Shown piece by piece: positions 3,325-44,583 of a stretch of 64,000 nucleotides of DNA (positions are counted from its first letter, which is position 1; every line of letters begins with the position of its first letter). A program made the translations under genes and the position numbers. A model generated the notes under the pieces. The model did no database searches. It was not told the origin of the DNA and saw only the letters and a list, made by a program, of their open reading frames with translations. Origin of the DNA: Acidobacteriota bacterium (GTDB lineage Bacteria; Acidobacteriota; Thermoanaerobaculia; Multivoradales; Multivoraceae); contig JAJCXN010000009.1 in NCBI GenBank assembly GCA_029263415.1, forward strand, positions 124,001 through 188,000. The letters run 5' to 3'.

Positions 3325-5327
3325 GCGACTCTGGGGAGGCGCGACGGTTCGAGGTGGTGTCGCCATTCTCGCCACAAGGAGACCAACCAGCGGCAATCGA
3401 CGAGCTGGTCGACGGTGTGAATCGTGGTGAGCGGGAACAAGTGCTACTGGGCGTCACCGGTTCGGGAAAAACGTTCACAATAGCCAAGGTGATTGAGGCG
3501 ATTGACCGGCCGATTCTTGTGCTGTCGCACAACAAGACTCTCGCCGCTCAGCTCTACCAAGAATTCAAGAGCTTCTTCCCGAACAATGCGGTCGAGTTCT
3601 TCATCTCGTACTACGACTACTACCAACCTGAGGCCTACATCCCACAGAGCGATCTCTACATCGAGAAGGAGACGTCGATCAACGAAGACATTGAGCGCCT
3701 GCGCTTGCGAGCAACGACCTCGTTGTTCGAGCGGCGCGACGTGATCTTGATCGCTTCGGTCAGTTGCATCTATGGTTTGGGTTCGCCGGGGTCCTTCTTT
3801 GGCATGTTGCGCTTCTTTGAGGTAGGCCAACAGGTTGGGTTGCAGGAGGCGCTTGCTGCACTGGTCGAAATGCAGTACGAGCGTACCAGCCTCGATCTGT
3901 TTCACGGCGCCTTCCGTGTGCGCGGGGACGTCCTCGAGATTCTGCCGAGCTACGATGAGCGAGGCGTGCGGATTGAGTTCTTCGGCGACGAAATCGATCG
4001 CCTCGTTCGCTTCGATGTGCTCACCGGCAAGGTGCTCGAGCCCTTGGATCAAGTGCCGATCTACCCGAACAGTCACTACGTGACGCCCGAGGAGCGCCTG
4101 AAGCTCGCGATCAGCACGATCGAACAAGAGCTTGAAGTGCACCTGAAAGGGCTGCACGACAACAATCGACTACTCGAAGCGCAGCGGATTGAACAGCGCA
4201 CCCGCTTTGACCTGGAGATGCTGAGTGAGATCGGCCGCTGCACCGGCATTGAGAACTACAGCCGACACTTGTCCCAAGGCGTTCCGGGCGCGCCGCCACC
4301 GACCTTGATCGACTATCTCCCCGAAGACTTCGTGCTAGTGGTCGACGAAAGCCACCAAACGCTTCCGCAGGTCCGAGGGATGTACCGCGGCGATCGAGCT
4401 CGCAAAGAGACCTTGGTGGAGTTTGGCTTCAGGCTCCCAAGCGCACTCGACAATCGGCCGCTGACCTTTGAAGAGTTCGACCAGAAGATCGGTCAGCGGA
4501 TATATATTTCAGCGACGCCTGGACCGATCGAGTTGGAGCGCACCCAAGGAGTGGTCACCGAGCAAGTCATCCGCCCAACGGGTCTGCTAGATCCGGTCAT
4601 TGAACAGCGAACTTCGACCGGACAAATCGACGACCTCCTGGCCGAGATCCAGGAGACCACCAAGAAGAACGAACGAGTCCTGGTGACGACGCTCACCAAG
4701 CGCATGGCAGAAGAGCTGAGTCAGTACCTGGCTGAGCACGGAGTGCGCGTTCAGTACTTGCACAGTGACATCGCTGCTCTCGAGCGGATTGAAATCACCA
4801 CCGCACTGAGACGCGGCGAGTTCGATGTGCTGGTCGGTATCAACCTATTGCGCGAAGGTCTGGATTTGCCGGAGGTCTCCTTGGTGGCGATCCTCGATGC
4901 TGACAAAGAGGGCTTCTTGCGAAGTCAAACATCCTTGGTTCAAACGGCAGGGCGCGCGGCCAGAAACCTCAACGGGCGCGTCATTTTCTATGGCGACAAG
5001 ACCACCGAGTCCATGCAATACGCAATGGATGAGACAGCTCGGCGTCGAGCGATTCAGGATAAGTACAACCAAGACCACGGCGTCGAGCCCGCGTCAATTA
5101 TCAAAGATATCCACAGCCCACTGGTCAGAATGAGTGCGCTCGACTACTTGCAGCCCCCGCCCGAATACGCACTCGAGATCGCTGCCGATGAGCGAGTCCC
5201 GGTGAACAAACGAATCGAGCGTCTCGAGAAGGAGATGCGGTCAGCCGCCAAGCGGCTCGAGTTCGAGGAAGCGGCTGCGCTGCGCGACAAGCTCAACGAG
5301 CTCAAAGAGCTACGGATTGTGGGTTGA
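3321..5327 (+). CDS. uvrB: Excinuclease ABC subunit B
   Basis: DNA-damage-recognition helicase of UvrABC nucleotide excision repair, loaded by UvrA and cut-partnered by UvrC. At 668 residues it has family length. Walker A is GVTGSGKT (44-51). The damage-probing beta-hairpin region has the tyrosine-rich [12 protein letters not shown] (about 98-109). Motif II is DESH (about 342-345), followed by helicase motifs including the [13 protein letters not shown] stretch. A C-terminal UVR motif (about 630-665) is the UvrC contact. The start is GTG, overlapping the preceding stop as GTGA. uvrC follows 41 nt downstream, so both incision subunits are probably co-transcribed. uvrA is not in the window. Confidence 0.98.
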
Positions 5328-8860: not shown

Positions 8861-9269
<409 letters not shown>

Positions 9270-40510: not shown

Positions 40511-42297
40511 TGTCTGTTTCAAAGCCCTATCGTTGGAGCAGCTGGCGGCACGGATGGGGGCTTTTGATCGGAATGACCGTGGGGCTCTTAGGCTGCGCTG
40601 AAGGCGAGCCCGACTATGACGTGCTCATCCGTGGCGGGAACCTCTACGACGGTGTGGAGGTCGAAGCCAGGCGATTGGATGTGGGTCTCCGTGGTGACCG
40701 CATCGCGGCGATTGGCGATTTGGCCAGCTCAACCGCAACCACCGAGATCGACGCTGCCGGACTCGCCGTTGCTCCGGGCTTTATCAACATGCTCAGTTGG
40801 GCCACAACTTCGCTGTTGGTCGACGGCACCGGGCTGGGCGATTTGGTTCAAGGTGTCACCCTTGAGGTGTTTGGTGAGGGTGGGTCGATGGGCCCACTGA
40901 ACGACGAGATGCTGGCGTTACTCGAAGCGGAGAAGGTCTACGACTATACGGTCGACTGGAGAACGCTTGGCGAGTACCTCGAAAGCTTGGAATGCCGCGG
41001 AGTGTCGCCCAATGTGGCGTCCTTTGTGGGAGCGACTACGGTACGGACGCACGTCTTGGAGTATGACGATCGAGCACCAAATGAGTCTGAACTCGATCAG
41101 ATGCGAGCCCTGGTTCGCGAGGCGATGATGGAAGGAGCCCTCGGGGTTGGCTCATCCCTCATCTATCCACCAGCGTTCTTCGCCTCGACCGAGGAGTTGA
41201 TCGAGCTAAACAAGGTCGCCTCGGAGCACGGCGGCGCCTACATCTCGCACCTGCGCAGCGAGGGCAACCAGTGGCTAGAAGCGATCAACGAGCTGATTCA
41301 GATCGCGGAAGAAGCCGACATTCGCGCGGAGATCTACCACCTCAAGGCCGCGGGTGAAGCCAACTGGAACAAGATGGATGCGGCTATCGAGCTGATCGAA
41401 GGCGCTCGTGCTCGAGGGCTGGAGATCACCACCGACATGTATCTCTATACGGCCGGTGCCACAGGGCTAACCGCGACCCTTCCTCCCTGGGTCCAAGAGG
41501 GTGGCCATGGGGCGATGATTCAACGGCTGCGTGACCCCGCAGTGCGAGCGAAGGTGGAAGCGGAAATGCGTAGCTCGAGTGCTGATTGGGAGAACATGCT
41601 CCAGATCGCCGGGGACGCTAGCCGAGTCCTTCTCATCGGCTTCAAGAATCCGAGTTTGGCCGAGCTGACCGGGCAGACGTTGAATGAGGTTGCCCTGGCG
41701 CGAGGAACAAGCCCGGAGGCGACCGCGATCGATCTCATCGTTGAAGACGATACGCGCGTGGAGACGGTCTACTTCATGATGAGTGAGAACAACGTCAAGC
41801 GCCAGATTGCTTTGCCCTATATGCGGTTCGGTTCAGACGCGGGTTCGATGGCGCCACGCCCTCCGTTCACCGATCGCAGCAACCACCCCCGCGCATATGG
41901 CAACGTCGCTCGCTTGCTGGGCCACTATGTTCGCGACCAAGGCGTGATCTCGCTGGGAGAAGCCGTTAGGCGACTCACAAGTCTGCCAGCGGAGACCCTT
42001 AGGATCCGGGATCGCGGCCGCCTTGCAGTAGGTGCCTTTGCTGATGTGGTGATCTTTGATCCGTCGAAGATTCAGGATCACGCCACGTTCGAGGACCCTC
42101 ATCAGTTGTCGACTGGGGTCAACCATGTGATTGTCAACGGGCAGTGGACTCTGCGCGACGGGGAGCCAACAGGAACTCTGGCAGGACGCGTGGTACGTGG
42201 GCCCGGATGGGGTGGGTGGGACGCGACCGACGCAGGGAATCCTCCACCTGTCGACTGTAGCGGCCGGTTGGACCCAAGCGCGGCGGCCGACGAATGA
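40498..42297 (+). CDS. N-acyl-D-amino-acid deacylase-like amidohydrolase, lipoprotein
   Basis: Amidohydrolase-superfamily protein of 599 residues with a signal peptide ending in a lipobox (VGLLGC), so probably membrane-anchored. An ATG at 40510 overlapping the previous stop (TGATG) is an alternative; AGGA upstream favours 40498. The fold is evident from YDVLIRGGNLYDG, APGFINM and the C-terminal DVVIFDPSKIQDHATFEDP. The metal-binding HxH after PGFI is replaced by L99-S-W101, while later candidates remain (ISHLRSEGNQ, IYHLKAAGE, RFGSDAGSM). The family resembles D-aminoacylases; activity is uncertain. The ATG of the M20 gene overlaps its stop (ATGA), suggesting a joint role in acyl-amino-acid or peptide catabolism. 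Confidence 0.88.
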   Translation: MGELMSVSKPYRWSSWRHGWGLLIGMTVGLLGCAEGEPDYDVLIRGGNLYDGVEVEARRLDVGLRGDRIAAIGDLASSTATTEIDAAGLAVAPGFINMLSWATTSLLVDGTGLGDLVQGVTLEVFGEGGSMGPLNDEMLALLEAEKVYDYTVDWRTLGEYLESLECRGVSPNVASFVGATTVRTHVLEYDDRAPNESELDQMRALVREAMMEGALGVGSSLIYPPAFFASTEELIELNKVASEHGGAYISHLRSEGNQWLEAINELIQIAEEADIRAEIYHLKAAGEANWNKMDAAIELIEGARARGLEITTDMYLYTAGATGLTATLPPWVQEGGHGAMIQRLRDPAVRAKVEAEMRSSSADWENMLQIAGDASRVLLIGFKNPSLAELTGQTLNEVALARGTSPEATAIDLIVEDDTRVETVYFMMSENNVKRQIALPYMRFGSDAGSMAPRPPFTDRSNHPRAYGNVARLLGHYVRDQGVISLGEAVRRLTSLPAETLRIRDRGRLAVGAFADVVIFDPSKIQDHATFEDPHQLSTGVNHVIVNGQWTLRDGEPTGTLAGRVVRGPGWGGWDATDAGNPPPVDCSGRLDPSAAADE

Positions 42298-43505
42298 CCA
42301 TCGACATTACGGCGCCAGCCTCGTGGTTCCCGGCGGGTCCTGCAGCCGTGGCAGCGCTCACTGCACTGCGCGAGAGTCTGCATCGGAATCCGGAGCTTTC
42401 CTTTGAAGAACACCAGACAACCGAACGACTGATCGCTGCGGCTGAAGGTTTCGGTTTGAGTGCGGCCAACGGTGTCGAGATACAACGCTTCTCGGGAACC
42501 GGGTTGTCTATCCGCATTCCCGGCACGGATGCGGGCGGCACCAGCTCCAAGACGGTTGCGGTGCGCGGCGACATCGATGCGTTGCCGATTCAAGAAGAGG
42601 CACGGTGCGCCTTCGCATCGACCGTGCCTGGAGTGATGCACGCATGCGGTCATGACGTGCACGCTAGTTGGGCCCTAGGAGCGGCGTCGTTGATTGCGCG
42701 CGAACCGGCGGCTGGCGATGTCGTGGTCGTTTTGCAGCCCGCAGAAGAGACAGGCTTGGGCGCCGCGACTGTGGTTGAAAGCGGCGTGCTCGATGATGTT
42801 GCCATGATCTTTGGTGCTCACGTCGATCCACGCTGGGTGGTCGGCGAGGCGGTGGTGCAGGCCGGGCCGGTGGCAGCTGCCACCGATGAGTTTTCGATCA
42901 CCATACACGGAGCCGGCGGTCATGGCGCCCGTCCGCAGCTGGGGCGCGACCCAACCGTGGCTGCTGCCGCCTTGGTGATGGAGCTGCAGACGATAGTTTC
43001 TCGGAGGGTGACTCCGGGAGACCCTGCAGTAGTCACCGTCGGAGAACTGCACGCCGGCACGGCCCCGAACATCATTCCTGAGCAGGCACGAATCGCGGGC
43101 ACCTTGCGTTCGACCTCAACTGCCACCCGGGAGCTGCTTCGAGCTGGCGTTCAGCAGCTAGCAGCGGGCATCGCGAACTCCTTCAGTGTACGCTGTGAAG
43201 TGGGCTTCGGTGCCGGGACCCCACCGGTGGTCAACGACGAGAAAGCGACACAGCATGCCGCAACCGCCGCGGAGCAATGGCTGGGGAAAGCTGCTTTGCG
43301 CGCGTTGCCTGAGCCCAATATGGGCGGTGAGGATTTCGCCGTCTACCTCGAGACCATGCCCGGCTGTTTCTTGCGGATCGGGTCTCGCCTACCCGATGAC
43401 CCGATCGTTGGTGCCCACACACCGCAGTTCTACGCTCGCACGGAGTGCGTTTTCGTCGGGGCGGTGGTCCTGGCAGAAGCAGCGCGTAGAGCTTCCCGGG
43501 GCTAG
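42294..43505 (+). CDS. M20 family amidohydrolase
   Basis: Metal-dependent peptidase/amidohydrolase of 403 residues, similar to hippurate hydrolase and N-acetyl-amino-acid hydrolases. Metal and catalytic motifs are RGDIDALPIQEE, MHACGHDVHAS, LQPAEETGLGA and GAHVDPRW, with a final metal histidine in VGAHTPQFYAR and NMGGEDFAVYLE. The lid domain covers about 185-295. No signal peptide. It is coupled by ATGA to the D-aminoacylase-like gene. Substrate is unknown; acyl or acetyl amino acids are plausible given the neighbour. Confidence 0.92.
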   Translation: MTIDITAPASWFPAGPAAVAALTALRESLHRNPELSFEEHQTTERLIAAAEGFGLSAANGVEIQRFSGTGLSIRIPGTDAGGTSSKTVAVRGDIDALPIQEEARCAFASTVPGVMHACGHDVHASWALGAASLIAREPAAGDVVVVLQPAEETGLGAATVVESGVLDDVAMIFGAHVDPRWVVGEAVVQAGPVAAATDEFSITIHGAGGHGARPQLGRDPTVAAAALVMELQTIVSRRVTPGDPAVVTVGELHAGTAPNIIPEQARIAGTLRSTSTATRELLRAGVQQLAAGIANSFSVRCEVGFGAGTPPVVNDEKATQHAATAAEQWLGKAALRALPEPNMGGEDFAVYLETMPGCFLRIGSRLPDDPIVGAHTPQFYARTECVFVGAVVLAEAARRASRG

Positions 43506-43687
43506 GAAGCGGGGTCGGTGCCGGCCGAGGACGCCCGATGGTAGGGCGGTCTAAGTGCCTCTCGAACGCATCCGGCAACTGAACGGTGCCGGTGCCTCGA
43601 CGCCTATGTCTCGACCAGGTAATGGAACCTTGCGGGGTGGTGAGGGCTACGGCCCGCAGCGGCGCTAGTGTCGTAGGCTGCAAGTTC
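43506..43687. other. Intergenic region without a visible gene
   Basis: No coding or RNA signal seen in this stretch after the M20 gene. Together with the stem-loop element that follows it forms a 367-nt gap between convergent genes. Confidence 0.4.
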
Positions 43688-43786
43688 TGGGCAAAAAAAA
43701 TGGGCACTCGCCAAGTGACAACTTCCAAGAGGTTGCTAGAGAACCTGTGTGGAAGCATTGCTGTCGCTTGGAGTGCCCCATGCCCA
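43688..43786 (-). terminator. Long imperfect stem-loop with U8 tract (terminator or small RNA)
   Basis: Nested pairing: TGGGCA 43688-43693 with TGCCCA 43781-43786; GGGCACTC 43702-43709 with GAGTGCCC 43771-43778; CAAGTGACA 43712-43720 with TGTCGCTTG 43762-43770 (one G:T); CTTCCA 43722-43727 with TGGAAG 43750-43755; AGGTT 43730-43734 with AACCT 43742-43746, loop GCTAGAG. On the minus strand the main stem is followed by A and eight U (43700-43693). That fits an intrinsic terminator about 95 nt downstream of the barrel gene. The 77-nt hairpin is far longer than an ordinary terminator. Confidence 0.65.
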
Positions 43787-43872
43787 AATAGAAACTAGCA
43801 CATACGTACTAGCCCTCGCAAGCCGTACGCGCAAGAACCCAGAATGCTTACAGTGACCATACTGGTGGGCTG

Positions 43873-44583
43873 CTAGAAGGAGAACAACACTCCACCGGCT
43901 ATGAAACCTTGCGTCATTGCAGCGCCCTCATCGCAGCTGCGTCTGCAACGGTCGTTACGATCGTAGAGGTCGTCGTCGAAATCAGTGAAGAAGAGCCGCG
44001 CGTCCAAGCGCAGTCCAAAGTGATCTGTGAAGCGGGCCTTCAGACCGCCGCCGATACTGGCCGAGGGGAAGGTTTCGTCTCGGACTCCGTCGATCTTGAA
44101 GTTGAATCTCGAGACTCCACCGCTGAGTGCGAAGTAGGGCTCAATCTGACCCAAAGGAAAGTGCCAGACGATGCCAGCGTGATAGTAGTCCAGTTCCAAA
44201 TCTCCGATCACGAAATCTCCGTTGAAGGGACCTTCGTCAATGGCGACTTCGGTGTCCTGACTGATCGCGATGAACTCAACCTGCAACAGTCTGTTCACGG
44301 GGACGCCAAGAAAGACTGCGGTTCCACCTGAGTCCTCAACCTGGAGGTCGATGAATCCAAACTCTGGATCAACCAGCTCGAAAGCTCCGCCGAACTGAAA
44401 GGTGCCAGCGACGGTTATGTCGACTGAACCATCCGCAGCTGCGGCCGGAAAGCTCGCGCCGATCATCAGTGCGATCATCAATGTGATCGCGAACAAACGG
44501 CACGGGAGCGGCATTGGTTTGGACGCTGAGGAGGACTGGCCCATGATCGGGTACGTGTTCGTTGGGAGTGAGTAGTAGTCCAC
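43873..44583 (-). CDS. Outer-membrane beta-barrel protein
   Basis: A 236-residue exported protein. A hydrophobic signal segment (LFAITLMIALMIGASFPAAAA) ends near residue 50. The mature part alternates polar and hydrophobic residues with aromatic belts (YYHAGIVWHFP, IEPYFALSGGVSRFNF, FGLRLDARLFFTDF) and ends in Phe (GGVLFSF), as expected for a BamA-recognised barrel of about eight strands (OmpA/OprF-like or PF13505-like). The GTG at 44583 has AGGAG 10 nt upstream; ATGs at 44544 or 44514 would give a shorter signal peptide. A CRRSC cysteine pair near the C-terminus may form a disulfide in a loop. Ligand unknown. Confidence 0.82.
   Translation of the reverse strand: MDYYSLPTNTYPIMGQSSSASKPMPLPCRLFAITLMIALMIGASFPAAAADGSVDITVAGTFQFGGAFELVDPEFGFIDLQVEDSGGTAVFLGVPVNRLLQVEFIAISQDTEVAIDEGPFNGDFVIGDLELDYYHAGIVWHFPLGQIEPYFALSGGVSRFNFKIDGVRDETFPSASIGGGLKARFTDHFGLRLDARLFFTDFDDDLYDRNDRCRRSCDEGAAMTQGFIAGGVLFSF

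Follow-up and report, generated by a model that had tools for sequence, protein, structure and literature searches.

A large nested hairpin that ends in a run of eight uridines, downstream of a gene for an outer-membrane beta-barrel protein, raises the question of whether it merely ends the transcript of that gene or is part of a small RNA gene in its own right. The element lies on the minus strand at 43688-43786 of a 64,000-nucleotide stretch of Acidobacteriota DNA (the window), and was compared with homologs in two genomes, G002 and G003, which belong to two other genera of the same family as G000, the source genome of the window. The features are collected in Table 1.

Table 1. Coordinates of the element, its parts and its neighbours (window positions unless another genome is named).
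Feature	Position	Strand	Remarks
Predicted small RNA, about 94-95 nt, TGGGC to end of U8	43693..43786	-	fold, homologs in two genera, model R2; 5′ end inferred
Invariant 5′ block TGGGCATGGGGCAC (14 nt)	43773..43786	-	identical in G000, G002 and G003
First 8 nt of the TGGGCATGGGGCAC block			predicted unpaired in released RNA; candidate seed
Main hairpin, 77 nt	43702..43778	-	base stem GGGCAC/GUGCCC conserved; upper part in this genome only
U8 tract	43693..43700	-	intrinsic terminator tail; possible Hfq site
Outer arm TGCCCA past the U tract	43688..43693	-	pairs with TGGGCA at 43781-43786
Extended -10-like motif TGC TAGTTT	43792..43800	-	TGnTAnnnT also in G002 and G003, spacing within 1 nt
Possible -35 TTGCGA, 18-nt spacer	43816..43821	-	read from sequence
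Outer-membrane beta-barrel protein gene, upstream	43873..44583	-	Pfam OMP_b-brl 1.7e-9
M20 peptidase gene, convergent neighbour	42294..43505	+	Pfam Peptidase_M20 3.8e-34
ParA/MinD-type ATPase gene	G002:C12, L048 1661-2524	-	between barrel gene and element; in G002 only, not in G000 or G003

Fold and genomic place of the element

The hairpin proved to be built as first described, being nested, with a 77-nt main part, a 7-nt apical loop, an A (43701) and U8 (43700-43693) directly 3′ of the main hairpin, and an outer TGGGCA/TGCCCA pair that reaches past the U tract. The minus strand between 43680 and 43795 folds at -47.1 kcal/mol as against -29.9 +/- 3.2 for shuffled sequences (z -5.34), beating all 200 shuffles in a comparison that the preliminary description had proposed as a check, while the RNA alone, from TGGGC to U8, folds at -36.9 kcal/mol (z -3.48, with 0 of 200 shuffles as good). 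The raw energy is unexceptional for the window, in which at least 40 of 5112 segments of 100 nt, mostly GC-rich, reach -45.0 or lower. UGGGCAU is also able to pair with GUGCCCA instead of GGGCAC, as seen in the centroid fold of G002, and in these predicted folds the two 5′ arms of the element could compete for GUGCCCA.

The element is situated 86 nt past the stop codon of the barrel gene on the same strand (about 86-146 nt across the homologs), follows the last gene of a same-strand unit in all three genomes and in each of them converges with the M20 gene. A GC-rich stem with a U tract directly after it and a same-strand gene upstream is the arrangement of an intrinsic terminator. The element occurs only once in the genome of 6.89 Mb; the remaining four of five BLAST rows are matches of 15-18 nt with E >1. 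A palindromic repeat, as had been suggested, is not supported by this count, and a dispersed repeat of the REP or MITE-like kind, which would have many copies per genome, was rejected on the same ground.

Homologs in two further genera

The first homolog was a BLAST match in one of 40 relatives (G003, E 0.0035), located just 3′ of a barrel ortholog whose protein is 39% identical to that of the window, and reads GGGCATGGGGCAC...GAGTGCCCACTTTTTTTTGCCC. A 13-mer search of 24 genomes of the family yielded a third copy, GGGCATGGGGCAC...GTGTGCCCATTTTTTTTTTGCC, at the same junction in G002, and the three element-bearing genomes represent three genera of one family. Kept in all three are TGGGCATGGGGCAC, the closing arm GTGCCCA and a tract of U8-U10; the inner hairpin differs and is longer in the window.

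A covariance test came out in favour of the structure, with compensatory changes between G002 and G003 and with the window copy recovered by model R2, which was built from G002 and G003 only, the window copy being left out. With the window as search space R2 found that copy at E 7.9e-7, and in a 464 kb sample of G000 (the window together with 20 further stretches, each of 20 kb; 928,000 strand positions in all) at E 5.8e-6, the next best matches having E 1 and 4.3. Among 19 hand-aligned stem pairs of G002 and G003, 12 are the same, three show one-sided and two show two-sided changes, and two are broken, a count that leans toward the stem because the alignment was chosen to fit it. The similarity detected between G000 and each of G003 and G002 falls inside the element and in the stretch just past its U tract, where G000 and G003 share GCCC(A/G)GAA(C/G)TTG (43682-43692 of the window, minus strand); this shared sequence counts against a small RNA, as an RNA ending in the U tract does not explain it. 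The outer arm can form 5 bp in G003 and 4 bp in G002.

Searches for further members returned the same three genomes. Model R1 found only its three training genomes among 72 genomes of the order, and among 147 genomes of the class it added to these only a partial match at E 0.55. The 13-mer GGGCATGGGGCAC occurs at 33 places in 28 of 148 class genomes, and in the 32 places inspected (G084:C262 being left out) a U tract and closing arm accompany it only at the known three. R2 gave 16 matches at E <=0.1 over 396 genomes of the phylum, and the eight inspected had no U tract; these negatives are soft because the strict filter loses members with long inserts, G000 itself having been missed. A pattern scan of 84,980 genomes, a set that may omit own or very near records, returned five stretches, namely G003 itself and four that are apparently unrelated, while viral contigs gave no match to the element pattern. 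Of 15 loci from a fourth genus, 10 have the convergent M20 gene at a distance of 64-149 nt from the barrel match's end, one has it at 1099 nt, and the remaining four show no M20 match within the retrieved DNA; at none of the 15 was a T5 or longer run present in the 260 nt downstream (126 nt for L018).

No Rfam family reached its gathering score within 43500-44000 of the window, and no meaningful match was obtained at the G002 and G003 loci; SRP RNA and 6S RNA were considered and dropped for want of an Rfam match. Away from the element, the two Rfam matches of the window are an RNase P RNA class A at 8867-9267 (plus strand, 293.7 bits) and a tRNA, and a group II intron match of 46.4 bits was observed elsewhere in G000 (L093 128-229, at the start of G000:C23). 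No paper on small RNAs from this bacterial class turned up in a literature search.

Promoter-like motif, U tract and Hfq

Boxes resembling an extended -10 stand 5-6 nt before TGGGC in all three genomes: TGCTAGTTT in G000, TGTTACGTT in G003 and TGCTATCCT in G002. TGnTAnnnT has 61 occurrences in the G000 sample (928,000 strand positions) and lies 5-7 nt upstream of 0.02% of the positions sampled, its occurrence in three of three homologs not amounting to three independent draws since the sequences are related. The tRNA genes of this genome have similar -10 boxes by eye, for instance TGCTATAAT and TTGACG-N17-TACCTT. G003 offers TTGCCT with an 18-nt spacer as a -35. The putative promoter is weak: a simple sigma-70 consensus scan detected none there, and no -35 is evident in G002. 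The earlier proposal of a 3′-UTR-derived small RNA of the barrel gene has lost ground, because a ParA-type gene separates the barrel gene from the element in G002 and because the promoter-like motif sits right at the 5′ end in all three homologs.

The run of eight at the end of the element is the sole A/T run of that length in the window. Both strands of the 464 kb sample contain 19 T runs of six or more, seven of them of length >=7 and three of length 8, and it was judged by reading that a compact strong stem directly precedes the run only at the element; two other T runs, a T7 and a T6, have lower energies over 102-108 nt (-38.8 and -37.4, respectively) and were judged to be without such a stem. 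T runs longer than seven are described in PMC4509938 for the terminators of E. coli sRNAs and as typical of Hfq binders, and internal U-rich sequence ahead of the terminator hairpin is also named there for Hfq-dependent sRNAs. The tails of U8, U8 and U10 in the three genomes are likewise longer than seven, and an internal U-rich stretch before the hairpin is absent from all three element sequences, the 5′ tail being UGGGCAUG.

Hfq is encoded in each of the three genomes (profile matches of 4.7e-14 in G000, 1.8e-13 in G002 and 3.4e-14 in G003, with Pfam Hfq at 3.8e-15 for the G000 stretch). A match was obtained in 49 of the 72 genomes of the order, 43 of these being above the cut-off, and in 46 of the 48 that belong to the order's other families. 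Within the family just three of 24 genomes have a match, and these are exactly the three with the element; the profile search found Hfq in none of the 21 genomes lacking it, all of sister genus g2 (G001, G004-G023) and most of them smaller. Because the 21 belong to one genus, joint loss of Hfq and element counts as a single event, and the absence of Hfq from g2 looks, from these sequences, like loss in one lineage. A search of the 72 order genomes did not recover the element from the Hfq-bearing genomes that belong to other families.

The complement GCCCCATGCCC occurs at 20 sites in the three genomes, of which 19 loci were inspected and the twentieth is G003's own element, and this simple search revealed no gene shared between the three apart from the element's own locus.

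An intergenic site on contig C20 of G002, near 69677 (L055 about 3620-3700, minus strand), carries a 20-nt complement of the 5′ end of the G002 element. A hairpin and then a T5 tract come after it, and the stretch is enclosed by a pair, CACCAGAAG/CTTCTGGTG, whose second arm lies past the T tract, as in the window's element. The complementarity may be due to chance; extending over 20 nt beside a hairpin and T5 tract of its own, the site could therefore be a target or a sponge RNA.

Readings of the element and comparison with known systems

On balance we lean towards reading the element as a small RNA gene that is transcribed from a promoter of its own and closes with a terminator, the U tail of which could be a binding site for Hfq. 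Transcription would start about 6-7 nt after the extended -10 promoter, near 43786, and the transcript would pass through the conserved 5′ tail and the hairpin closed by GGGCAC/GUGCCC to stop in the U8 tract, giving a predicted RNA of about 94 nt here and of 62-64 nt in the relatives. A U8-U10 end over a strong stem would be the kind of 3′ end that is bound by Hfq, the invariant 5′ end would be the likely base-pairing part, and the same terminator probably also ends the barrel transcript by halting readthrough from that gene. The original wording, a terminator or small structured RNA, holds, with the evidence now favouring a small RNA gene that has a terminator at its 3′ end. This reading accounts for the conserved 5′ tail that is left unpaired, for the -10 motif, for the length of the U tract and for the distribution of Hfq. 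A terminator alone would account for the U tract, and for where the element lies, but leave the other three features unexplained. More tentatively, the element may represent an Hfq-dependent sRNA family of Acidobacteriota with a 14-nt 5′ seed, lost together with Hfq in the sister genus and having the C20 site as target or sponge, a proposal drawn from three known members of one family.

It is possible, if rather doubtful, that the element is only the intrinsic terminator of the barrel transcript (including the ParA-type gene in G002), any small RNA being a processed 3′ end, and that its unusual strength and conservation come from a second role, the shielding of the convergent M20 gene. Its strand, its position behind the unit's final gene in each of the three genomes and its U8 agree with this. 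Terminators, however, seldom keep 14 identical nucleotides including an unpaired tail across genera, as this element does, nor would a terminator explain the extended -10 motif at nearly equal spacing in three of three; the distance from the stop codon is long, and the 464 kb sample showed no second terminator with a comparable U tract.

An improbable alternative is a palindrome acting at the level of DNA, with its nested GGGCA/TGCCC arms bound by protein or engaged in recombination. In its favour, G000 and G003 both retain the outer arms, which reach past the U tract, and similarity continues beyond that tract; yet the element is single copy and its pattern has no viral match, G002 has just 4 bp left of the outer pair, and both the compensatory changes and a U tract on one side only speak for RNA. 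A small-protein reading that begins at ATGGGGCAC (MGHLLVG... in G002 and G003) is hardly credible, for although the three differences between G002 and G003 within the four codons that follow ATG GGG CAC leave the amino acids unchanged, the frame is lost after seven residues and crosses the U tract, and G000 would encode an unrelated 38-residue peptide.

As a putative small RNA gene the element resembles Hfq-dependent trans-acting sRNAs of the SgrS/RyhB type in specifying a short RNA with a strong hairpin end and a tail of at least eight U, in its intergenic position, in having its own promoter-like motif and in the presence of Hfq in the genome. It differs from them in having no known sequence relation, in the missing U-rich stretch before the hairpin, in its confinement to three genera of one Acidobacteriota family and in that its Hfq binding and its pairing with a target are putative. 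With ordinary intrinsic terminators it shares the GC-rich stem followed by U8 and the position 3′ of a same-strand gene, but it is set apart by its 77-nt hairpin, its conserved unpaired 5′ tail and -10-like motif, and a pairing arm past the U tract. Acido-1 and the other Rfam motifs of the phylum (PMC2864571) are likewise structured RNA candidates from Acidobacteriota, and no Rfam family matches the G000 element at gathering score. Such genes could be sought in a GC-rich genome at the points where a long U tract, rare there, coincides with short conserved ends. If the favoured reading is true, the element would provide a compact small RNA in Acidobacteriota that is amenable to testing, for which members of the family with both Hfq and the RNA, set against a sister genus with neither, would form a natural comparison.
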